NCBI GenBank assembly: GCA_947492235.1
Contig: CANLLZ010000001.1
Location: forward strand, 1,116,001-1,180,000
Direction of reading: 5' to 3'
DNA from: an uncultured Altererythrobacter sp.
GTDB lineage: Bacteria > Pseudomonadota > Alphaproteobacteria > Sphingomonadales > Sphingomonadaceae
Length of the DNA stretch: 64,000 bases
The position numbers were made by a program, and so were the translations under genes. A model generated the notes under the pieces. The model had not been told where the DNA came from, searched no databases, and saw only the letters and a program-made list of their open reading frames with translations. Positions 1,783 to 27,860 of this stretch are shown here, in pieces (the first letter of the stretch is position 1; every line of letters starts with the position of its first letter).

Positions 1783-3210
1783 TCAGCCGCGTGTAGTGAA
1801 CTGCTCGGCGTTTATGCCGAGATCGGTCAAACGCTTGCGCAGCGTGTTCCGATTGATGCCCAGCACGGCCGCGGCACGCAATTGGTTACCGCCTGTGCGC
1901 AGCAAAACTTCCTCGAACAGCGGCTTTTCAAACGCCGCCGTAGCCATCCGGTGCCATGCACCATCAGGCGGATTGGTCTGCGTGAGCCAATCTTGCACCG
2001 GGGCAGTCAGGTCGGCCCCGTCGCCCGAGCCCTCTCGCGCCGATTCGAACGCGCCACCACGCGCGACGATATCGTTCACGACATCGGCATCGATAACATC
2101 CTCGCGGGACATGATCGCAAGCCGGAATACCAGATTGCGCAATTCGCGGACGTTGCCGCGCCAGGGGAGCTTGGCCAACCCGGCAATTGCCTCTTCGGTC
2201 AATCCACGCCGAGGCAACCCTTCCTCTGCAGCCTGCGCCATAAAGTGCGTCGCCAGCATCCCGATATCCTCGCGCCGCTCGCGCAGTGGAGGCAACTCGA
2301 TCGGAACCACGGCGAGCCGGTAATATAGGTCTTCGCGAAAAGTCCCTGCTGCGATCATGGGAGCCAGATCGCGGTTGGTCGCGGTGACGATGCGCACGTC
2401 AATCGCCACGTCCTGTCGTCCACCGACCCGCCGAATGCGGCCCGATTGCAAGGCCCGCAATAGCCGGGTCTGTGCCTCTACCGGCATGTCGCCGATTTCA
2501 TCGAGAAACAACGTGCCCCCATTGGCTTGCTCGAATTTACCGATGGTCTGCGTGGCGGCTCCGGTGAATGCGCCGCGTTCGTGACCGAACAGTTCGCTCT
2601 CTATGAGATCATGGGGAATGGCGGCTGCATTGACTGCGACAAACGGCCCGGTCTTGCGGTGGCCCAGCTGGTGGATCGCCTCTGCGACCAGTTCCTTGCC
2701 CGTACCGCTTTCCCCGGTGACCAGCACTGTCAGATCGTTACGCAGAACGCGCGCGATCATGCGGAAGACGTCCTGCATTGCCACACTGCGTCCGACCAGC
2801 GGCATGCCGTCGCCCGCCTGCTCGCCAACCACAGCATCCGCCCCCGCGCCCGCTGCCTGGCGGACGGCGCGCACCAGTTCGTCGAGATCGAAGGGTTTGG
2901 GGAAATATTCAAAGGCTTCGTTTTCGCTGGCCCGAACGGCGGTATCCAGCGTGTTCTGGGCCGACAGGACGATGATTGGCAAAGTGGGATAGGATTGGCG
3001 CACTCTGCCAAGCGCCGACAGTCCATCGCCATCTTCCAGCATTACATCTGTGAGCATCGCCGCGTAGCTGTTCTTCGCCAACAGCTCGTCCCGCGCGGCG
3101 ATGGCGGCGCAGCGATCAACCTGATACCCTTCGGCCTCCAGCGCAGAGACGATGACGGTGGCGATACCGGCATCATCCTCGACCAATAGAATGCGCGTAT
3201 TGCCGGTCAT
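1783..3210 (-). CDS. ntrC: Nitrogen regulation response regulator NtrC (sigma-54 activator)
   Basis: Sigma-54-dependent transcription activator of nitrogen assimilation genes. The receiver domain (about 5-118) carries the phospho-acceptor D55 and conserved K105. The AAA+ domain has Walker A GESGTGKE (166-173), the sigma-54 contact loop GAFTGA (213-218) and Walker B TLFLDEIG. The C-terminal Fis-type helix-turn-helix ends near residue 470. The 475-residue length is normal for NtrC. Its ATG overlaps the ntrB stop by 4 bp (ATGA), indicating translational coupling with the cognate kinase. All key residues are present. Confidence 0.96.
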   Translation of the reverse strand: MTGNTRILLVEDDAGIATVIVSALEAEGYQVDRCAAIAARDELLAKNSYAAMLTDVMLEDGDGLSALGRVRQSYPTLPIIVLSAQNTLDTAVRASENEAFEYFPKPFDLDELVRAVRQAAGAGADAVVGEQAGDGMPLVGRSVAMQDVFRMIARVLRNDLTVLVTGESGTGKELVAEAIHQLGHRKTGPFVAVNAAAIPHDLIESELFGHERGAFTGAATQTIGKFEQANGGTLFLDEIGDMPVEAQTRLLRALQSGRIRRVGGRQDVAIDVRIVTATNRDLAPMIAAGTFREDLYYRLAVVPIELPPLRERREDIGMLATHFMAQAAEEGLPRRGLTEEAIAGLAKLPWRGNVRELRNLVFRLAIMSREDVIDADVVNDIVARGGAFESAREGSGDGADLTAPVQDWLTQTNPPDGAWHRMATAAFEKPLFEEVLLRTGGNQLRAAAVLGINRNTLRKRLTDLGINAEQFTTRG

Positions 3211-4295
3211 TTCGGTTCCTTCATTTCGGCAAGATGGACGCTGAACCGTGTGATTTCCGCCCGCCGGTCTCGCTCATGTGCAATCCGTCCATCCATATCG
3301 CGCACCAGCTTGCGAACGAGAGCCAAGCCGAGGCCCTGCCCTCCCTGCTTGGATGTCACAAAAGGCTCAAAAATCCGGTCTGCAATCGCGGGATCAATGC
3401 CGGGTCCATTATCGGTGATCGCCACTTCTATCGGCAGCGCGACCGAGCGTCCCCTGCCCCTTCGCAGGACATTCATCACCAGGCCTGTGACATAACGCGT
3501 GCGAATTTTGACAATCGGGTCTTCATTTTCCGAACATGCATCCCGTGCATTGCTCAGCAGATTGATCAGCACTTGTTGCAAGGCATCGCGGCTTGCCATC
3601 ACGAGAGGTAGGGACGGATCGAATTCTTCCTTGAACGTGACCGGCGGTGCGCCCTCGATCGAGCGCACGACCCCCAACGCATTGCGAATGGCTTCGTGCA
3701 AATTCACCGGCGTCAGCGGTTCTTCCTGCGTACTCCCCAGCGCTTGCATCCGGTCGATCATGCGGGCGATCCGGTCGACCTCTTCGGTAATCAGCGTCGC
3801 CAGCCCCCGCTCGCTTTCCGGCATTTTGCGCGCGAGCAATTGCCCTGCTCCGCGAATGGCCGCCAGCGGATTCTTGATCTCGTGCGCCAAAACGGCCGGA
3901 GCAGCGATACCGGCTGGGTCGGGATCGTCTTCCATGCTTGCCTGCCCGGCCTCGGATAAAGTCACCACACGCCATCCGTCAGACGCTGCCACAGGGGAAA
4001 GGGTCAAGTTTACCGTGAGCGTTGTATCGCCTCTTCCGAGTGGCAGGCCACGCGCCGTCAAACGGGCTTCAGGATCACGCAAGCGCGAAGCTATGCGCGT
4101 GTCCGACAGCGGCACGACGTCGGTGCAATTGCGCCCGATGATGCGCGCGGCGCCCATGCCCAGCAAGTCCTCTGCCGCCTGATTGGCTTGCCGAATGATA
4201 CCATCTCCGTCGATCAACAGGAATGCAAAGACCAGACCGGAGATTTGTGCGGCGGGATCGGGAATTCCTGCCTTACCCACAGGGCCGGTTGTCAC
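3207..4295 (-). CDS. ntrB: Nitrogen regulation sensor histidine kinase NtrB
   Basis: Cytoplasmic PII-responsive kinase/phosphatase for NtrC. An N-terminal PAS domain (about 15-115) is followed by the H-box [13 protein letters not shown] with His138, then a HATPase with an N-box ([11 protein letters not shown]), DNGPGI and GQGLGLAL. There are no membrane segments, as expected for NtrB. The start is GTG at 4295, which overlaps the dusB stop by 4 bp (GTGA), and the gene overlaps ntrC by 4 bp at its 3' end. The triple is one translationally coupled operon, the classical nifR3-ntrBC order. Confidence 0.95.
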
Positions 4296-18751: not shown

Positions 18752-19219
18752 TCAGCACCGGCAAGCGGGCTTGGGCTTTCGTTTCGGGGCGGTTGTCGCA
18801 AACTCGGCTTGTGTCAGCTTTCGGTCGCCATTGGCATCAGCGCCGTCGAATTTCGTCGCCGTCGACACGGCCCATTCTTCGAAGGTCAGGAGGTTGTTGC
18901 CGTCCTTATCGAGCTTCTTGAACGCGCTGGTGCGGGTGGAAAGCATTTCGGACCGGGTAATGGACAGATCACGGTTGCGGTCATAGCGGAAGAACCTGCG
19001 TTGCTCGCGGCTTAGCTGGGTCGCCTCTGGCGGTGTCGGTCCGCGCAAATCGCCCGGATCGGTTTCGGGCAGCTCGGGCTCAGCCGGTTCCTCGGTGGCA
19101 ATCGACTCAGGCTCCGGCGGAGGCGCTGCCTCTTCCACCTGTGCCCTGCCCTGCCACCAGAACATCCCCACGCCCGCCAGCATCAATGCCAGCACGGCGC
19201 CCAATATCATTCGGTCCAT
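18752..19219 (-). CDS. Membrane-anchored or exported EF-hand calcium-binding protein
   Basis: A 155-residue protein with an N-terminal hydrophobic helix (LGAVLALMLAGVGMFWW), an acidic proline-rich linker and three EF-hand-like loops: DRNRDLSITRSE, DKDGNNLLTFEE and DANGDRKLTQAE, each with acidic or Asn residues at the canonical positions. The C-terminus is basic with a Cys-Arg-Cys end. It is a calcium-responsive periplasmic protein by inference. It is convergent with trmFO with a gap of 8 bp. Confidence 0.85.
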   Translation of the reverse strand: MDRMILGAVLALMLAGVGMFWWQGRAQVEEAAPPPEPESIATEEPAEPELPETDPGDLRGPTPPEATQLSREQRRFFRYDRNRDLSITRSEMLSTRTSAFKKLDKDGNNLLTFEEWAVSTATKFDGADANGDRKLTQAEFATTAPKRKPKPACRC

Positions 19220-19240: not shown

Positions 19241-19888
19241 TCACCTCCCGATTAGGCCAGTTCGCACAGCAAGGGCAAGGCTGGGCAGCCCGTCCAGCAT
19301 GGGGCGCTTTTTCGATGCAGCGCGCCGACCAAGATTGCCGAGCACTGCAAATGGTCGCAGAGAACGCGGGAGGCGGACAGGCTGGTCAATTGAGACTGAG
19401 TTCAGCGGCAGCTCAAAGCCTCTGCCCAAAAGATCGCCCCATGTGAACTGCACCGCTGATGCAGCAAGGGCGCCGTCATCCGGCGATACCCCGACAACGC
19501 TCGCCAACGCGTCCCATGAAGCAGCACGGCCCGCAGCAAAACGCTCCGCCCCCTGCGCATCCAATTCTTCGCCAGCCACCAACTCTTCCCAGCCATCCAC
19601 CAGTGCGCCAAGTTGTGTCGCTGCGCTGCCCCATTGTTCCAACCGGGCCAGAAGCGGCTCACCCGTAGGCCATTCGTCAGGTGCCTGCGCGAAACGGTCC
19701 CGCCACCAAGCAAGCTTCATTTGCGCGATAATCGGCTCGCTCGCCTCGCGCACAGCCCGCCCGAGCCGCGCATCGAGAGCGAACAGCGCAGCGAACAAAT
19801 GAAACTCTTGGGTGCGCGCAGAGCCTAAGGCGACCCGGTACACCGGCGGCAAACTGGCAAGAGAAGTGTCATCCACATTGTCGGCCAT
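19241..19888 (-). CDS. Squalene/phytoene synthase-like protein (short, NDUFAF6-like)
   Basis: A 215-residue helical protein related to the trans-isoprenyl diphosphate synthase fold: EFHLFAALFALDARLGRAV followed by IIAQMKLAWWRDRF is the degenerate first motif seen in NDUFAF6-like proteins. The DxxxD metal motifs needed for squalene or phytoene synthesis are not evident, and it is shorter than true synthases (about 280-300), so catalysis is doubtful. Mitochondrial NDUFAF6 assists complex I assembly; a similar role here would be inference. Confidence 0.72.
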   Translation of the reverse strand: MADNVDDTSLASLPPVYRVALGSARTQEFHLFAALFALDARLGRAVREASEPIIAQMKLAWWRDRFAQAPDEWPTGEPLLARLEQWGSAATQLGALVDGWEELVAGEELDAQGAERFAAGRAASWDALASVVGVSPDDGALAASAVQFTWGDLLGRGFELPLNSVSIDQPVRLPRSLRPFAVLGNLGRRAASKKRPMLDGLPSLALAVRTGLIGR

Positions 19889-20011: not shown

Positions 20012-21610
20012 ATGAAACGAATCCAGCACCTTATCTCGGCAATCCGGCGCTCACGTACCGGCAATGCTGCCACCCTGCTCGCACTGGGTCTGCCCATGCT
20101 TGTGGGCGGAACGGGCTTCGCTGTGGATACTGCACAATGGTATTTGTGGAAGCGCGAGCTGCAATACGCCGCCGATCAGGCCGCAATCGCTGGCGCGTGG
20201 GCACGGTCGGATACCGGATCAAGCAGTGCCTATGCCGCGCGGGCGGACAAGGAATTCAACGCCAATTTGGACATCACGTCGGATTTCGCCGCCACGCCTG
20301 TAGTGGGACTGGCTGATTGGGACGGGGAAACCGACGCCAGCGTTACTGTGGAAGTGACCGCATCCCGGCAGCTGCCCTTCTCCAGCTTCCTGACCAACGA
20401 AGCGGCCACGATCCGCGTCCGCGCTCAGGCCGCTGTCGTTCCCGGTGAAGATTTCTTCACTTGCATGCTGGCCGTCGACCCAAGCGCCAGCGGCGCCTTT
20501 GAGCTGGGCGGGAACACCTCGGGCAACGCCCCTTGCGGATTCGGTGCGATTTCCAACAGCGGCACCGCAATGGTGAAGAACGGTAATCCCAGCGCCTGGG
20601 CCGGACAGCTGATCTCCAATGGCGGGATCGAAGACGGGTATGACGCTAACGGCGAGATCTTCGCAAATGTCGGAAGCCTGTCCGACCCGTTCGCTGGCAT
20701 CACGCCGCCAAGCGACACCACTTCGCGGACTTATTCCTGCCCCACAGCAACGGGCGGCAGCAGCACGGCAACGGCCACAGTGACAACCGTAACGTACTAC
20801 GATTATCAGTACTATATCGGTAAGAATCCGTCGCAAGCGACCTATGACGCTGGCTATGCCGGGCCAAATTCCGACTATACGACCAGTGCGGGACCGGTCA
20901 CTGAAACAGTTGCGGTTGGTACGACAAATGGCGCAAGCACGACGCAAAGCCCGAGCTCGTTCAACAAGAAAGATCTCAACCTAGTCGGAGGCTCCGGCAA
21001 TAAGAAGGTCTACGAATGGCTGCAGCAGACGATCACCAAGACCTACAGCAATGTAACGACCACAACGACCGGCGGTAGCGACGGGATCGCTCGGCCGGAA
21101 CCGGGCACTTACGGTGATATCAACATCGCCTGCACGACCGAATTCCAGCCTGGCGTATACACAATCACCGGTGAACTGGACTTCGGCCAGAACCAGGTCG
21201 TGACAGGCAGCGATGTCCTGTTCGTCATCACTGGCAGCGGAAGGTCCTCGATCAACAGCAAATCGGAAATCAACCTGAGCGGGATTACCGACAACACCTT
21301 GCAGACAGTCTACGGCCTTAGCGCTGCCGACGCGGCCGAACTGGCGGGTATGATCATTTTCGACCCCGAAAGCACCGACGAGTTCAAGGTCAATGGCGGC
21401 GCCGACATGGTGTTGAATGGCAACATCTACATGCCGAAACGCAAAGTGACCTTCAACGGCAACTCTGCGCTGTCGGGCGTATGCCTTCAGGTTGTGGCCG
21501 GGACGATCAAAATGACCGGCTCCAATACGGTCAACGCGTTTTGCGTGCCTACCATCGCGAACCCCATTCCTGCCGGCACTCGCCGCACATCGGTCAGGCT
21601 AGTTGGATGA
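20012..21610 (+). CDS. TadG-like pilus-associated protein with prepilin-type N-terminus
   Basis: A 532-residue protein with an N-terminal hydrophobic helix (NAATLLALGLPMLVGGTGFAVD) and the continuation TAQWYLWKRELQYAADQAAIAGA, the pattern of the TadE/TadG-like N-terminal family. The remainder is Thr/Ser/Gly-rich and beta-like, with a filamentous-repeat look around 400-520 (polar, Asn-rich). There is no von Willebrand motif. It is the first gene of a seven-gene run; its stop overlaps the next start by 4 bp. The function is inferred as a surface or pilus-associated component. Confidence 0.75.
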   Translation: MKRIQHLISAIRRSRTGNAATLLALGLPMLVGGTGFAVDTAQWYLWKRELQYAADQAAIAGAWARSDTGSSSAYAARADKEFNANLDITSDFAATPVVGLADWDGETDASVTVEVTASRQLPFSSFLTNEAATIRVRAQAAVVPGEDFFTCMLAVDPSASGAFELGGNTSGNAPCGFGAISNSGTAMVKNGNPSAWAGQLISNGGIEDGYDANGEIFANVGSLSDPFAGITPPSDTTSRTYSCPTATGGSSTATATVTTVTYYDYQYYIGKNPSQATYDAGYAGPNSDYTTSAGPVTETVAVGTTNGASTTQSPSSFNKKDLNLVGGSGNKKVYEWLQQTITKTYSNVTTTTTGGSDGIARPEPGTYGDINIACTTEFQPGVYTITGELDFGQNQVVTGSDVLFVITGSGRSSINSKSEINLSGITDNTLQTVYGLSAADAAELAGMIIFDPESTDEFKVNGGADMVLNGNIYMPKRKVTFNGNSALSGVCLQVVAGTIKMTGSNTVNAFCVPTIANPIPAGTRRTSVRLVG

Positions 21611-22068
21611 TCCGGCATTTGCACAAAACACTGGCAATCTCGTCGGATACACGGGGCAGCATGGTGGTGGAATCCGCCTTTGTCATCCCGATCCTGCTCA
21701 TCATGAGTCTGGGCGGTTTTGAAGTCAGCAGCATCGTGGCGCGGCACAGCGAAATGCGCTCGGCGGCATCGGAAGCCGTGGCGCTGGTGCTGTCGACAGA
21801 ACCCGAACAGGGCGATGATTTCAGCACAATCGAAGATATCGTCGAAGCGTCGACCGGACTGGCCGATGCCGACGTCACATTGGTTGAAAACTATCGCTGC
21901 GGAAACGCCGACGATCTTACGGACGATATGGCTGATTGCGGGTCGAGCGATGTGATCTCCACCTTTGTCGTGATCACTATGAGCGATACTTACTCGCCGA
22001 TCTGGACCGAATTCGGCGTTGGCAAGGACATTGAAGTGGCCGTGGACCGCACGGTGCAGATCGGGTGA
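21607..22068 (+). CDS. TadE-like pseudopilin
   Basis: A 153-residue protein with a TadE-type N-terminus: a short basic leader, then SMVVESAFVIPILLIMSLGGFEVSSIV, with the conserved Glu at the start of the hydrophobic helix. The soluble part has two cysteines that could form a disulfide. ATG 21607 is chosen because it overlaps the previous stop (ATGA); the frame extends further upstream only as a shadow. The gene overlaps the next one by 4 bp (GTGA). Confidence 0.78.
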   Translation: MIRHLHKTLAISSDTRGSMVVESAFVIPILLIMSLGGFEVSSIVARHSEMRSAASEAVALVLSTEPEQGDDFSTIEDIVEASTGLADADVTLVENYRCGNADDLTDDMADCGSSDVISTFVVITMSDTYSPIWTEFGVGKDIEVAVDRTVQIG

Positions 22069-22514
22069 GCAGGATGGTGACATTTGCGCGCCGGCTGCAA
22101 CGCTGCGATCGCGGCGGTATGCTGATCGAATTCGCCCTGATCGGCCCGGTGGTCATCGGATTGATGCTTGGCGTGCTCCAGGTTGGCGTGGCGCTGCAGA
22201 ACTATAACGCGGTCCGCAGTGCGGCTGCAGACGCGGCGCGCTACGCCGTGGTCCAGTATCAGGCCGGCAACACGCCGAGCGACGCGCAGATTGAAACTGA
22301 AGCGGAAAGCATTGCAACCAGCTCTCCCTACTTCCTGAAGAGCGACCGGCTGGTGCTGGATGTGGATCAAGAGGCGACCCAATCGATTGCCGGTGCGATC
22401 GAAATGACGATTTCGGCCACCTACACGCCGGAACTGATCCTGCCCTTTTTCAGTTGGAAAGCGCCTGCGATGACCTATGAGCGCCCGATCTTCGTGCTCG
22501 ATCCCACCCCGTAA
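22065..22514 (+). CDS. TadE-like pseudopilin
   Basis: A 149-residue protein with the canonical TadE helix GMLIEFALIGPVVIGLMLGVLQVGVAL followed by the NYNAVRSAAADAARYAV segment. The start is GTG 22065, overlapping the previous stop (GTGA); an ATG at 22074 is an alternative. The short C-terminal domain ends in a hydrophobic strand. It is the third gene of the coupled set 20012-22514, after which a 72-bp gap precedes the first vWA gene. Confidence 0.82.
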   Translation: MSRMVTFARRLQRCDRGGMLIEFALIGPVVIGLMLGVLQVGVALQNYNAVRSAAADAARYAVVQYQAGNTPSDAQIETEAESIATSSPYFLKSDRLVLDVDQEATQSIAGAIEMTISATYTPELILPFFSWKAPAMTYERPIFVLDPTP

Positions 22515-22526
22515 TTCGATGAGGGC

Positions 22527-22540
22527 TTAATTTCTTAACC
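22527..22540 (+). promoter_or_regulatory. Shared upstream motif (YTAA-N4-TTAACC), copy 1
   Basis: TTAATTTCTTAACC ends 47 bp before the GTG of the first vWA gene. A matching motif lies at exactly the same distance before the second vWA gene (24545-24558). TTAACC resembles a CtrA half-site, but the spacing (N4) is not the usual N7, so the regulator is unknown. Confidence 0.4.
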
Positions 22541-22586
22541 CTCTTCTTGAACGTAGTAGTCAGTCGCAGTGACTTAATGGGAAGCC

Positions 22587-24491
22587 GTGAGCAACCCAAA
22601 CCATCATGCCTCGACCTTCCTGTCGCGCCTGCTGCAAGACCGCTCGGGCAACACGCTCGCGCTGGTCGCTGCGGCCACCGCGCCGCTCGTGGCCGTTGTA
22701 GGGAGCGCAGTCGATATTGGCCGCGGCTATGTCACCGAGAGCCGCCTGCAGCAGGCCTGCGATGCGGGCGTGCTTGGTGCGCGGAAGAAGCTGGGTTCGG
22801 ACCTGCCGCCCAGCGGCGCTGTTCTTGGACAAGTCAAAAATGTCGGAAACGAGTTGTTCGATCTGAACTTCCCTGAAGGTCGGTACGACTCGAAGGACCG
22901 TTCCTTCGTCATGACCCTCGAGGAAGATTTTGCAATCTCCGGGCAGGCGAGCGCGACACTGCCGACGACCATCATGGGCATTTTCGGTAAGCAGGAGATT
23001 CCCGTCGCCGTAACGTGCCAATCGCGCATGAACTTCACCAATCTCGACATCATGATGGTGCTCGATGTCACAGGTTCTATGCGCCACACCAACGCTGGCG
23101 ATAGCGCATCACGGATCGACACAATGCGGTCGGTCATCAAGGGCTTCCACAGCAATGTCGAGGCATCAAAAGCGCCCGATACCCGCGTTCGCTATGGCTT
23201 TGTGCCGTATGCAACCAACGTTAATGTCGGTGGACTGCTGCAGAACAATTGGGTGGCCCAGCAATGGACCTATCAATCCCGCGAATCCGCGCCGGATGTC
23301 GTAACCGTTTCGAATGGCGCATCGATCCTCAACAAGACGGAAGTTAGCGGAACCGACTCTGATTGGTATGAGACAAGCAATTACCCCGCCACTCCAGTGC
23401 CCGGCACAACAGATGAATTGTATTGTGCAACCGAGGCACCTGAAGACACTTATACCAAAACGGTAACCGTTACGGGCACACGGTCGGAACCCTTTGCCGG
23501 ACCGCCAGCGGGCACGCAAACATTCGATGATCGCACGATTGTCGAGGAGGGCTCAAAATTTAGAGTCTCGATGTCTGGCACTACCTGCAGAATCGAGCAA
23601 AGAGACTACTCAGCATATACCTATACCGACACGTATTGGGTCCGCCCGTACGAGTTCACAACCGCTCAGTGGACTTACAAGCCTTTGTCTCTCGATGTTT
23701 CCGACTGGCGTGCCACGATGGATACCTGCATCGAGGAGCGCGATACGTATGAGATAACCGACTATGACAATGTCGATCTGACCCGTGCGCTGGATCTGGA
23801 CATTGATCTTGTCCCAACCCCCGGCAACACGGCGACGCAGTGGCGGCCACAGAACCGTGATGCCACATATTCCAGGCGGTTTTATGAGCACGGAACCGGC
23901 GAGTTAAATCCCGAAGAATTCACTACTGCTCACACCTTCGCCCGTACGGGCAATTGGTGGATGTCCGACTGTCCCGCCCCTGCGCAGCAGCTCGCCGAGA
24001 TGGATGCATCTGCGGTCGATAGCTATCTCGCAACTCTGGCACCCGAGGGCGCAACCTATCACGATATCGGCATGATCTGGGGCGCGCGTTTGCTCTCACC
24101 GGATGGTCTGTTTGCCACCGAAAATGCCGACGAATCCGCGAACAAGCCGACCACGCGGCATCTGATCTTCCTTACCGACGGGCAGACCGAAGCGTATGAT
24201 CTCGCATACGGTGCCTATGGCGTGGAGCCACTTGACCGGAGGCGGTGGGATCCAGCGACTTCGACCCTTACGCTTCAGGAAACCGTCGAGGAGCGATTCA
24301 AATTCGCTTGCGACGAGATCAAGAAGAAGAACACGACGGTGTGGGTCATCGCGTTTGCCACGGCGGTAAACTCGGCAATGACCGAATGCGCAGGCGAAGG
24401 GCACTATTTCGAAGCCAACAGCGCTTCGCAGCTGACCGATGCCTTCTCGTCGATTGCACGGTCGATGGGTGACCTGAGGGTGAGCAAATAG
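22587..24491 (+). CDS. TadG-like von Willebrand factor A protein (paralogue A)
   Basis: A 634-residue protein. The N-terminus has the TadG-type helix NTLALVAAATAPLVAVVGSAVD and the VTESRLQQACDAGVLGARKK segment. A vWA domain follows with MIDAS DVTGSM (D160-S164), interrupted by a long Thr/Tyr/Asp-rich insert (about 220-430), then the rest of the domain with FLTDGQTEAYD and a C-terminal AGEGHYFEANSASQLTDAFSSIA. The start is GTG 22587. Adhesion or pilus assembly is inferred. It is a tandem duplicate of the gene at 24605, near-identical at both ends but divergent in the insert. Confidence 0.85.
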   Translation: MSNPNHHASTFLSRLLQDRSGNTLALVAAATAPLVAVVGSAVDIGRGYVTESRLQQACDAGVLGARKKLGSDLPPSGAVLGQVKNVGNELFDLNFPEGRYDSKDRSFVMTLEEDFAISGQASATLPTTIMGIFGKQEIPVAVTCQSRMNFTNLDIMMVLDVTGSMRHTNAGDSASRIDTMRSVIKGFHSNVEASKAPDTRVRYGFVPYATNVNVGGLLQNNWVAQQWTYQSRESAPDVVTVSNGASILNKTEVSGTDSDWYETSNYPATPVPGTTDELYCATEAPEDTYTKTVTVTGTRSEPFAGPPAGTQTFDDRTIVEEGSKFRVSMSGTTCRIEQRDYSAYTYTDTYWVRPYEFTTAQWTYKPLSLDVSDWRATMDTCIEERDTYEITDYDNVDLTRALDLDIDLVPTPGNTATQWRPQNRDATYSRRFYEHGTGELNPEEFTTAHTFARTGNWWMSDCPAPAQQLAEMDASAVDSYLATLAPEGATYHDIGMIWGARLLSPDGLFATENADESANKPTTRHLIFLTDGQTEAYDLAYGAYGVEPLDRRRWDPATSTLTLQETVEERFKFACDEIKKKNTTVWVIAFATAVNSAMTECAGEGHYFEANSASQLTDAFSSIARSMGDLRVSK

Positions 24492-24492
24492 G

Positions 24493-24512
24493 CCGGGTCA
24501 TCGCTCACCCGG
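24493..24512 (+). other. Hairpin after the first vWA gene
   Basis: A perfect 6-bp stem (24493-24498 with 24507-24512, 8-nt loop) lies immediately after the stop codon. No T-run follows, so it may be a weak terminator or a processing site rather than a full rho-independent terminator. Confidence 0.35.
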
Positions 24513-24544
24513 ACATCCCCCTCGATGGGTTGCAATGCAAAAGG

Positions 24545-24558
24545 CTAAGAAATTAACC
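24545..24558 (+). promoter_or_regulatory. Shared upstream motif (YTAA-N4-TTAACC), copy 2
   Basis: CTAAGAAATTAACC ends 47 bp before the GTG at 24605, the same distance as copy 1 before paralogue A. The conservation in otherwise dissimilar leader DNA suggests a promoter or operator element duplicated with the gene. Confidence 0.4.
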
Positions 24559-24604
24559 ACGCCCGTAGACATATCTCTTACGTCTGCAGGGTAACACTCC
24601 CTGC

Positions 24605-26551
24605 GTGACACACTGTAACTCCCCTCGATCGACCTTCCTGTCGCAACTGCTGCACGACCGTTCGGGCAACACGCTCGCACTGGTTGCTGCGGCCACCGCT
24701 CCACTTGTCGCCGTTGTGGGAAGTGCAGTCGATATCGGCCGCGGATATGTGACCGAAAGCCGCTTGCAACAGGCCTGTGATGCCGGCGTTCTTGGCGCGC
24801 GGAAGAAGCTGGGATCGGATCTACCTCCCAGCGGTTTTGTCCTCGGCGAAGTAAAAAAAGTCGGAAACGAGCTGTTCGACCTCAATTTTCCCGAAGGCCG
24901 GTACAGCACGGAAGACCGTTCCTTCGTGATGACACTGGAGGAAGATTTCGCAATTTCGGGTCAGGCCAGCGCGACGCTGCCGACCACGATCATGGGCATT
25001 TTCGGTAAGCAGGAAATGCCCATCGCCGTCACCTGCCAATCGCGCATGAACTTCACCAATCTCGACATCATGATGGTGCTCGACGTGACCGGCTCAATGC
25101 GTCTCACCAATCCCGGGGACTCGCTCTCGCGCATCGATTCGATGCGTGCGGTCATCAAGGGATTCCACGCGGATATTGAGTCAGCGAAAGCGCCCGACAC
25201 GCGCGTGCGATACGGCTTCGTTCCTTATGCAACCAACGTGAATGTCGGCGGCCTGCTCAAGAACAATTGGGTAGTCAACGATTGGACCTACCAGACCCGG
25301 GAACTGGATGCCACGAACACGACAGTTGGTACCAGAACCTATGACACCAACTGGGTATATGAGTCCGGGACACGCAGCGACTGGACCGCCGTATCTACAT
25401 ACGCAGCCACTTTCTATCCAGGAACGCCGGGCACGCCCGGGACCGGCGATGAAGGCGGTAGTGGCGGCACGAGCGACTCCTACAGGTGCGAGGGATCAGA
25501 ACCGGCTTATGCCGTAGACGTCACAGACACGCTTTTAGGCGAGTCATCCGAGCCCTTCGCAGGTCCTCCGGCCGGTACGCGGGAAATCGATCACATGCGA
25601 CGTTGGCATAACGGCACGCGCTATCGCACCATCAGGGATGGCAGCACGTGTACTGTCGAGCGCCAGGTCGACGACAATTATGTTCAGACCTTTGATCGCA
25701 TCACCGATCCAAGCGAAAGCAGCTCCACCGATTGGCGTTACACACCGATTGCGCGGGACGTCGATGATTGGAGAACCGAGACATTCGGTTGCATGGAAGA
25801 AATCGATACCGTCCAGATTGCGGACTACGACAATGTCGATCTGGCACAAGCGCTTGATCTGAACATCGATCACGTCCCCGGTTCGTCAAACGCCGGCAAA
25901 TGGCGCCCGATGTATCACGATATCATCTACGCACGCTCGCTCAACAATAGCGGCGTGGGGAGCTTCACGCCTGCCGAAGTGATCACCACGAGTACCTACG
26001 CAAAGACTGGTAATTGGTGGATGTCGAATTGTCCGGCCTCGGCGGTCAATCTGAACGAGATGGATGCGACCACCATCGCAACCTATCTTGACACCTTGAA
26101 CCCCGAAGGCGCGACCTATCACGACATCGGAATGCTGTGGGGTGCGCGGCTTTTGTCCCCCGACGGTCTCTTTGCCTCCGAAAACGCGGATGAATCGGCC
26201 AACAAGCCGACGACGCGCCACCTTATCTTTCTGACTGATGGTCAGACGGAAGCATATGATGTGGCCTACGGGGCTTACGGTCTCGAACCTCTCGACCGTC
26301 GGCGGTGGGATCCTGACACGAGCACGTTGACGCTCAACGAGGTTGTCGAGGCTCGCTTCTCGTTTGCGTGCAACGAGATCAAGAAAAAGAACACGACCGT
26401 GTGGGTGATCGCGTTCGGAACCGATGCCAATACCGCCATGACCGAGTGCGCTGGCGAAGGGCGCTATTTCGAAGCCAGCAATGCTTCGCAGTTGACCGAG
26501 GCCTTCGATAGCATCGCACGGTCGATGGGTGACCTGAGGGTGAGCAAATGA
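24605..26551 (+). CDS. TadG-like von Willebrand factor A protein (paralogue B)
   Basis: A 648-residue paralogue of the upstream gene with the same order: TadG-type N-terminal helix, vWA MIDAS DVTGSM, a long variable insert (here with a Gly/Thr/Pro-rich stretch), FLTDGQTEAYD and an identical last DNA block (the final about 33 bp match paralogue A). The start is GTG 24605. A 6-bp stem (24586-24591 with 24599-24604) abuts the start codon and would cover the G-rich upstream sequence. Its stop overlaps the next TadE gene by 4 bp. Confidence 0.85.
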   Translation: MTHCNSPRSTFLSQLLHDRSGNTLALVAAATAPLVAVVGSAVDIGRGYVTESRLQQACDAGVLGARKKLGSDLPPSGFVLGEVKKVGNELFDLNFPEGRYSTEDRSFVMTLEEDFAISGQASATLPTTIMGIFGKQEMPIAVTCQSRMNFTNLDIMMVLDVTGSMRLTNPGDSLSRIDSMRAVIKGFHADIESAKAPDTRVRYGFVPYATNVNVGGLLKNNWVVNDWTYQTRELDATNTTVGTRTYDTNWVYESGTRSDWTAVSTYAATFYPGTPGTPGTGDEGGSGGTSDSYRCEGSEPAYAVDVTDTLLGESSEPFAGPPAGTREIDHMRRWHNGTRYRTIRDGSTCTVERQVDDNYVQTFDRITDPSESSSTDWRYTPIARDVDDWRTETFGCMEEIDTVQIADYDNVDLAQALDLNIDHVPGSSNAGKWRPMYHDIIYARSLNNSGVGSFTPAEVITTSTYAKTGNWWMSNCPASAVNLNEMDATTIATYLDTLNPEGATYHDIGMLWGARLLSPDGLFASENADESANKPTTRHLIFLTDGQTEAYDVAYGAYGLEPLDRRRWDPDTSTLTLNEVVEARFSFACNEIKKKNTTVWVIAFGTDANTAMTECAGEGRYFEASNASQLTEAFDSIARSMGDLRVSK

Positions 26552-27135
26552 CGCAAATGTCTCAACCTGATCTTGTTGCCGACCAAAGCGGCGCGACCAT
26601 TGTCGAATTCGCGCTGGTGGTGCCGGTGCTGATGACGCTGCTGCTCGGTCTGTTCGACGTGAGCTACAATATGTACGCCAATGCCATTCTGGAAGGCGCC
26701 ATGCAGGAGGCCGGCCGCAATTCGACTATCGAGGATGCGGATACGGGGACAATCGACGCCCAGGTCACCCAGCAGGTGCGGCGGGCTGTCGGTAGCGCCA
26801 ACGTAACCTTTGCGCGCACCTCCTACGCCGAATTCTCCGATGTCTCGCAGCCGGAAGATTATACCGACGTCAACGGCGACGGAACCTGCAATGATGGCGA
26901 ACCGTTCGAGGACGCCAATGGGAATGGTGCCTACGATCTGGATCGCGGCGCGGCCGGACAGGGCGGTGCGCGCAATGCGGTTGTCCTGACGGCCACCATG
27001 ACGTTCGACCGCTTTTTCCCGATCGATGCGTTCACCAGCCTCCCGGAGAAATACACCGCATCGTCCTCCACGGTGCTGCGCAATCAGCCTTACGACATCA
27101 ACGAAAATCCGCCGGCGACGGAGAATTGCATATGA
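26548..27135 (+). CDS. TadE-like pseudopilin with a calcium-loop insertion
   Basis: A 195-residue protein with a classical TadE helix GATIVEFALVVPVLMTLLLGLFDV (Glu20). In the soluble part, residues 107-132 contain two consecutive calcium-loop-like sequences: DVNGDGTCNDGE (D107, N109, D111, E118) and DANGNGAYDLD (D122, N124, N126). This is the EF-hand/dockerin type of spacing, rare in TadE proteins. It is coupled to paralogue B by a 4-bp overlap and to the next gene by another 4-bp overlap. Calcium-dependent folding of a minor pilin is inferred. Confidence 0.82.
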   Translation: MTQMSQPDLVADQSGATIVEFALVVPVLMTLLLGLFDVSYNMYANAILEGAMQEAGRNSTIEDADTGTIDAQVTQQVRRAVGSANVTFARTSYAEFSDVSQPEDYTDVNGDGTCNDGEPFEDANGNGAYDLDRGAAGQGGARNAVVLTATMTFDRFFPIDAFTSLPEKYTASSSTVLRNQPYDINENPPATENCI

Positions 27136-27860
27136 GCCGCATCGGCAGAAAACTTCGCACCATGCTGCGTGATACGAGCGGCGTTGCGATGACCGAGTTT
27201 GCATTGGCCGCTCCGTTCATGATCGGCATCGGGCTGTTCGGCATGGAAACCGCCTACCTCACGATCGTACATATGAAGGTAAATCAGGCCGCCATTCACG
27301 TGGCCGATAATGCCTCTCGCATCGGTGACGTGTCCTCGCTGGATAACCGGGCCATTTACGAGTCCGATTTGAACGATCTGATGGTTGGCGTCGACCTGCA
27401 GGTCGGCAATCTGGACATCTTCGAGCATGGACGGATCATCATTTCCAGCCTGGAGACAGACCCGGACGCACCCACCAAGCAATGGATCCATTGGCAGCGG
27501 TGCCAAGGGAAGCTCGGCTGGGCATCCACCTATGGCCAGGAAGGCGACAAAGGCGGTTCATTCAAAGGGATGGGACCGAAGAACGAGAAGGTTGCGGCGC
27601 AGGAAGGCGACGCGGTGATGTTCGTAGAAATCAGCTACCAATATCAGCCCTTGTTCTCCGATTCTCTGGTCGGAGATTCGATGATCTTCGCGCATTCAGC
27701 CTTTACCGTTCGTGCAGACCGCGACCTCACGCAAATTTACCAGCGCGATCCGGCTTCCCCCGATCCGGTTGCTTCATGCGCCACCTATACGAACCTCGAT
27801 GGGGAAGTAGGCGGCGGAATGATCAATGCCCCCGGCAGCCAGGACGGACCGGGCACCTAA
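27132..27860 (+). CDS. TadE-like pseudopilin, longer form
   Basis: A 242-residue protein with the TadE-type helix GVAMTEFALAAPFMIGIGLFGMETAYL and a soluble domain with two cysteines (in WQRCQGK and VASCATY) that could pair. ATG 27132 gives a 4-bp overlap with the previous stop; a TTG at 27126 in frame is less likely. It is the last gene of the island and is followed by the convergent pdhB after 50 bp. Confidence 0.78.
   Translation: MSRIGRKLRTMLRDTSGVAMTEFALAAPFMIGIGLFGMETAYLTIVHMKVNQAAIHVADNASRIGDVSSLDNRAIYESDLNDLMVGVDLQVGNLDIFEHGRIIISSLETDPDAPTKQWIHWQRCQGKLGWASTYGQEGDKGGSFKGMGPKNEKVAAQEGDAVMFVEISYQYQPLFSDSLVGDSMIFAHSAFTVRADRDLTQIYQRDPASPDPVASCATYTNLDGEVGGGMINAPGSQDGPGT

Follow-up and report, generated by a model that had tools for sequence, protein, structure and literature searches.

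Tip proteins of Tad pili have recently been linked to the way cells sense surfaces, to phage sensitivity and to the killing of prey, according to the accessible parts of two reports (PMC12607857, PMC12075869). In Caulobacter crescentus, CpaL consists of a pilin-like module followed by a vWA domain that is interrupted by a beta-rich insert with no strong structural match, its gene lies outside the main pilus cluster, and deletion of cpaL lowers sensitivity to a pilus phage and alters surface sensing (PMC12607857, available text). PilB of Streptococcus sanguinis joins a pilin module to a vWA module with a metal ion-dependent adhesion site (MIDAS) and has been modelled at the pilus tip (PMC8179133, available text), and the minor-pilin tip complexes of TadEFG/Kil systems expose variable domains, with a modular domain on a TadG backbone and paralogous tips per genome (PMC12075869). 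Tip variability is proposed there for Tad pili in general and, in the sections at hand, recombination is mentioned in strain construction (PMC12075869). Here we analyze a tandem pair of genes, A and B, in a 64,000-nucleotide stretch of an uncultured Altererythrobacter sp. (contig CANLLZ010000001.1, positions 1,116,001 to 1,180,000), the whole of which is termed the window and provides all coordinates below. The pair likely encodes TadG/CpaL-like vWA minor pilins, each combining a pilin helix with a vWA domain split by a beta-rich insert, as judged from sequence and model, and tree comparisons identify gene A as a mosaic of two ancestries. The same-site genes of two congeners (G001 and G002) and the genes of two genomes of another genus (G063 and G282) are central to this comparison.

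22587..24491, + strand: gene A, 634 amino acids, a likely TadG/CpaL-like minor pilin with split vWA domain (open reading frame, Pfam, model and PDB matches)
22587..23228, + strand: N-terminal scaffold of A (pilin helix, first vWA part, MIDAS residues D160-x-T162-x-S164), 90% amino-acid identity to B; A and B are sisters here (support 100/94)
23289..23741, + strand: insert core of A, residues 235-385, assigned to another lineage together with G063 and G282 (breakpoint scan, tree)
24042..24491, + strand: C-terminal scaffold of A (second vWA part, MIDAS residues T490 and D531), 87% amino-acid identity to B
24605..26551, + strand: gene B, paralogue of A, 648 amino acids (open reading frame), whose insert groups with the same-site gene of both congeners
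25307..25804, + strand: insert core of B, counterpart of A residues 235-385 (alignments; groups with G001 and G002)

The Pfam Tad family (PF13400) scored above cut-off in both proteins (E 1.3e-8 for A), and Pfam VWA reached 23.7 bits on A, just below its cut-off of 23.8. The model of A, built from 48 sequences, has a mean predicted local distance difference test score (pLDDT) of 88, low over residues 1-40, and displays a long helix (residues 22-69), then strands of pilin type, then a vWA domain into which long beta strands are inserted at residues 226-370. The MIDAS residues D160, T162, S164 (D-x-T-x-S), T490 and D531 are complete in 102/102 aligned genes; among eight conserved cysteines, five occur in every gene, two are found in 101 genes and C334 is found in 81. 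A and B resemble CpaL in the order of their modules, in lying outside the main pilus cluster and in an insert without strong structural match, and A further shares with it the identically numbered D160, T162 and S164, followed by a T and a D, a likeness taken from the published numbers (PMC12607857, available text). When the model of A was compared with solved structures, the first rows were S. sanguinis PilB (7ba2, Z 18.2 over 272 residues, root-mean-square deviation 7.8; 7b7p, Z 18.1 over 209 residues, deviation 3.6), then Mfa5 and SpaC; the top analogues reported for CpaL, namely PilB, SpaC, Mfa5 and RrgA (PMC12607857, in part), all stand in the first 16 rows for A. Modelled alone from 64 of the 67 listed inserts, the insert reached a pLDDT of 92 and had no PDB match at E ≤0.001 (best Z 4.3), from which a new fold does not follow. 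We infer that both genes are expressed and act at the tip of the Tad (Flp, type IVc) pilus, with the insert facing outward and touching surfaces, cells or phages. As for the exposed binding region of the original prediction, exposure of the middle is plausible and binding by it would be a candidate role. Given the effects of CpaL on phage sensitivity and surface sensing, and the tip variability proposed generally for Tad pili, surfaces, other cells or phages would be the candidate partners of the insert.

Aligned by codons, these two same-strand paralogues diverge far from uniformly: their amino-acid identity is 90% over residues 12-214, 40% over A215-370, 53% over A371-485 and 87% over A486-634, which confirms the conserved ends and diverged middle of the original prediction. 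The sharpest departure covers A residues 235-385, and A386-485 is intermediate. The description of the ends as nearly identical holds for the proteins, save the first ten or so residues, which are unlike, but not for the DNA, whose third-position identity is 0.59 in the N part and 0.51 in the C part, with synonymous distances (dS, NG86 method) of 0.91 and 1.59. Family-wide, the insert is also the least conserved part, with a mean identity per window of alignment of 0.24-0.42 (A221-380) versus 0.43-0.81 (A21-220) in 1500 sampled pairs. Third-position GC is 0.58 in the A insert core (window 23262-23741) versus 0.72 and 0.70 at the A ends, and 0.63 versus 0.68 and 0.71 in B; the nominally lower value in A would be compatible with a foreign origin of its insert core.

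Tree comparisons carry the case for the mosaic. Segment trees were built from 27 of 68 genes, the breakpoint scan from 18 of 68, and a repeat from the 40 of 72 genes nearest to A at the ends. In the N segment, A and B are sisters (100/94), and approximately unbiased (AU) tests reject both a group of B, G001 and G002 without A (p 0.005) and a group of A, G063 and G282 (p 1e-4), the latter being rejected in the C segment as well (p 0.001). In the middle, A groups with G063 and G282 (100/99) and B with G001 and G002 (99/95), and the sister grouping of A and B is rejected (p 0.002). The 40-gene repeat, which set the ends against the insert core, gave the same result, with A, G063 and G282 together at 100/99 and A plus B rejected in the insert (p 0.0008), and a site-likelihood breakpoint scan delimited the foreign part to A residues 235-385 (permutation 0/5000). 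In a quick tree of flanking genes, for which Shimodaira-Hasegawa-like approximate likelihood-ratio support alone was computed, the window joins G001 and G002, and a grouping with G063 and G282 is rejected. Since the flanks side with the congeners and not with the other genus, it is the insert of A that would be the foreign part. Among 72,556 plasmid records 27 matched, all at less than 60% identity, hence no close donor was found among them. The G063 gene itself displays an in-frame stop within the insert (L149, about 6420), reflecting either a broken gene or a sequencing error.

The replacement of inserts could be followed in closer relatives. The clearest case is provided by the loci L193 (G059) and L192 (G200), whose 8-kb alignment has an overall identity of 95.1%. 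Taken in steps of 250 bp, identity is 93-100% except for one block at L192 2501-3500, where it drops to 70-82%; this block lies within the TadG gene (1847-3781, as matched by B), and the TadE genes on either side are unaffected. NG86 dS in this pair is 0.14 in the N part, 0.16 in the C part and 1.47 and 1.62 in the middle, where the ratios of nonsynonymous to synonymous change (dN/dS) are 0.12 and 0.07. The L192 gene was merged with that of L043, from the metagenome-assembled genome (MAG) record Erythrobacter sp. 34-65-8, as the two are identical over the last 900 bases. Close pairs were counted over 104 distinct genes including the window's own two (L173 and L174), 2 self-pairs being dropped of 9, leaving 102 genes. 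In 4/7 pairs the insert has reduced synonymous identity (p ≤0.0005), which amounts to three independent cases:

L153/L043
L102/L056
L074 versus L072 and L078

One close pair, P. aerophilus Ery1 versus C41, is strain-named, unlike the MAG-matching L192. Where the insert has been replaced, divergence jumps at synonymous sites as well as at the others, a signature of import, and we conclude from these alignments that recombination exchanges the insert as one block in close relatives. The same conflict between ends and insert separates more distant groups, which are supported by the ends and rejected by the insert: G282 plus four Pontixanthobacter-type genes (99/92 at the ends, p 0.003 in the insert), L045 plus L048 and L057 (99/95, p 0.005) and L062 plus L084 (98/93, p 3e-15).

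We therefore regard it as probable that A and B are tandem tip-type minor pilins whose insert, beta-rich and bearing cysteines, is an exchangeable module on a constrained scaffold, and that A carries a foreign insert. Purifying selection would maintain the pilin/vWA scaffold, and homologous recombination in the conserved scaffold flanking the insert would swap in a divergent version taken from a different strain or genus. The scaffolds of A and B would share an ancestry within the lineage, while the inserts would belong to two old lineages, that of B being the congeners' and that of A shared with the genomes of the other genus. Two routes may have led to A: either B was duplicated and the new copy then received a foreign insert, or A was already present, as an old or an imported gene, and B later overwrote its ends. 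Two insert versions would widen or vary what the pilus contacts. If inserts are indeed replaced by recombination, tip specificity would evolve by module exchange and not by slow drift; the exchanged block would then mark the part worth binding tests, and the 8 kb pair with its one diverged block would constitute a natural experiment. More tentatively, it is conceivable that throughout the Erythrobacteraceae and their relatives the vWA insert is a plug-in specificity module traded across genera, the conserved pilin/vWA arms being the recombination targets, and that tandem duplicates give one cell two tip specificities, probably under pressure from pilus phages or changing surfaces.

The kind of protein is known, and the exchange pattern appears undescribed in the literature surveyed: no description of such exchange was found in titles and abstract openings, a survey that left subscription journals mostly uncovered. 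Unlike CpaL, A and B stand in tandem within a Tad/TadE cluster and their inserts are exchanged between lineages, which goes unmentioned in the available text on CpaL (PMC12607857). PilB differs in belonging to a type IV pilus of a different class, in another phylum, and the accessible part of its report mentions no recombining insert (PMC8179133). TadEFG/Kil diversity, as far as the sections at hand describe it, lies between complexes, whereas for A and B the insert is replaced inside one protein (PMC12075869).

Several observations weigh against the exchange of inserts as just described, or against parts of it. The groups submitted to the AU tests were named after the trees had been inspected; in the C segment the support for A plus B is weak (85/42) and the group of B, G001 and G002 is rejected at p 0.034. 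The A insert has a long branch (0.91) and 45-46% identity to its nearest relatives, which fixes neither donor nor timing. The grouping of the L084 and L104 inserts is not rejected by the ends (p 0.12), 3/7 close pairs lack a strong jump (p 0.02, 0.64 and 0.94), and the match of L192 to a MAG contig makes a chimeric assembly conceivable at its diverged block. As to the kind of protein, unrelated vWA domains such as TFIIH and ANTXR2 reach Z 16-17, only 1-2 under PilB, which denotes likeness and not membership, and Foldseek with the A model returned nothing at E ≤0.001; the tad cluster is apart from the Flp genes, so that assembly of A and B into the pilus is putative. Finally, three genes suggest movement of the other part. 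The flanks of G063 (L149) join a Pontixanthobacter-like clade that also holds G282, and its ends join the window's genus; G028 (L035) has flanks beside Aurantiacibacter (support 94), an insert with A. sediminis and ends with the window's group; L084 has flanks and insert with L104 and ends with L062. The moved part thus appears to be the insert in A and the close pairs, and the ends in G063, G028 and L084. Since the ends disagree with the flanks in these three genes, scaffold and insert seem to separate in both directions, and such recombination leaves room for an overwriting of the ends of A by B.

That overwriting is the core of the rival explanation that survives best, a possibility we take seriously while judging it somewhat unlikely: the pair would be old, or A imported whole, with the ends homogenised by conversion from B and the middles left different. 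It accounts for the sister relationship of A and B at the ends and not in the insert, and the movement of ends in G063, G028 and L084 shows precedent in the gene family. In addition, the leader of B, and not that of A, resembles the congeners' leaders, so that G001 and G002 could have lost an ancient block made up of Tad1-TadE1-TadE2-A. Three runs of DNA identical between A and B also speak for conversion, with marginal clustering.

23016..23065, + strand: longest identical run, 50 bp, in the N part, a possible short conversion tract of marginal significance
24456..24488, + strand: identical run of 33 bp at the 3' end
22971..22996: identical run of 26 bp

The clustering of identical runs beyond chance is marginal: the longest run of synonymously identical codons has p 0.057 and 0.056 within the ends and 0.028 over the whole gene, and the number of such runs p 0.011 (N) and 0.16 (C). 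Identical blocks had been predicted at the 3' end, where the 33-bp run indeed lies, but this run is short and the longest is in the N part. Against fresh conversion stands the age of the ends. Their synonymous identity between A and B is 0.58 and 0.52; for trmFO, PdhA, HPPD and ACAD, compared between this genome and either congener, it is 0.46-0.63 (trmFO is named from a search; PdhA, PdhB, FtsB, ACAD and HPPD are our own working labels). The ends being synonymously as diverged as flanks between congeners, their shared ancestry would be about as old as the genus, their protein identity would reflect purifying selection or constraint and not fresh conversion, and any conversion must be old or piecemeal. 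Furthermore, the tandem copies in G090 and Novosphingobium lentum are not sisters at their ends. With respect to the gene conversion claimed by the original prediction, recombination is thus real, ends and middle differing in history by AU tests and breakpoint scan, but recent conversion finds no support in the synonymous sites or the run lengths; old or piecemeal conversion of the ends is one of the two possible routes to the mosaic.

The original prediction had further invoked diversifying selection. As a rival to import of the A insert, point-mutation diversification of an exposed loop in one of two recent duplicates is unlikely. It would fit an insert that is least conserved family-wide and sits on a long branch in A, and some distant pairs among those listed have insert dN/dS of 1.0-1.2, albeit with dS near saturation. 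The sister grouping of A and B is however rejected in the insert, synonymous sites jump with the others in a sharp block, and in the six closest relative pairs (N-end dS ≤0.51 among those listed of 194 pairs) dN/dS ranges from 0.04 to 0.20 across the insert core and from 0.05 to 0.23 elsewhere in the middle. These values, below 0.25 in all six pairs, give no support to the claim of diversifying selection by point mutation; in the middle of A versus B dN/dS is uninformative, as dS is saturated there. Selection for retaining different imported versions is possible.

A plain constraint profile, in which conserved ends and a fast middle run throughout the family with no recombination, is more unlikely still. 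The amino-acid identity between G001 and G002 has the same shape (0.73/0.48/0.53/0.69), but A and B are closer at the ends than B and G002 (0.90 vs 0.76) and farther in the insert (0.40 vs 0.61), topologies conflict with support, and a block at 70-82% between otherwise near-identical genomes is inexplicable by rate alone. Least credible is antigenic variation from silent donor cassettes in the same genome, of which conserved arms around a variable centre are reminiscent (one example, in its accessible part, is PMC11946796): a profile search of the window's own genome returned the A and B inserts only (E below 0.01), a search with the B insert added a single 45-residue match (E 0.024), and at the sensitivity of these insert searches no donor copies were found, so that this candidate was rejected.

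A and B are part of a tad cluster of seven consecutive + strand genes (window 20012-27860), all of Tad/TadE type, in the order Tad1, TadE1, TadE2, A, B, TadE3, TadE4.

20012..21610, + strand: Tad1, pseudopilin-like Tad-family protein (Pfam Tad 1.3e-10)
21607..22068, + strand: TadE1, TadE-like (Pfam TadE 1.6e-6), read from the open reading frame, which is listed from 21481 and probably starts at 21607
22065..22514, + strand: TadE2, TadE-like (Pfam TadE 1.2e-11)
26548..27135, + strand: TadE3, TadE-like (Pfam TadE 7.6e-13)
27126..27860, + strand: TadE4, TadE-like (Pfam TadE 2.9e-4, 21.4 bits versus a cut-off of 22.9; 23 bits, above cut-off, in the genome search)

Pyruvate-dehydrogenase-like genes flank the cluster on one side; on the other are trmFO, a protein with EF hands and one resembling squalene/phytoene synthases. 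Flp pilin genes lie away from it (contig 1, 833 kb), and contig 2 carries a further group made up of one Tad gene and two TadE genes. The site of the cluster is common to the 14 relatives compared, six of which hold the Tad1-TadE1-TadE2 block and eight of which do not. G001 and G002 each have one gene at the site, without this block, and each carries an additional distant copy elsewhere (about 36-41%). Among the loci compared, the closest relative of Tad1 is in G182 (58%), not in G063 or G282, and a joint import of the A insert with Tad1-TadE1-TadE2 is accordingly unsupported.

TadE3, TadE4 and the synthase-like protein (window 26548-27860 and 19241-19888) are 46-61% identical to their congener counterparts versus 85-98% for trmFO, PdhA, HPPD and ACAD; by this comparison the tad cluster evolves fast. 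The leader of B resembles those of the congeners at the same offset (23 nt at 83% for G001, 19 nt at 89% for G002), and that of A has at most 8 nt in common with them. Within the B leader (window 24492-24604), the short AT-rich stretch common with G001 and G002, at equal distance from the start, may be a promoter or regulator site. The small EF-hand protein (window 18752-19219) is kept beside trmFO in relatives and has a weak match to a lanmodulin model, far below cut-off. Further copies of the gene occur in other relatives: L157, L159 and L154 hold a second paralogue, more distant (about 31-37% identity) and accompanied by TadE genes of its own, adjoining the gene in opposite orientation, and L151 (G090) and L086 (N. 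lentum) carry same-strand tandem pairs as well.

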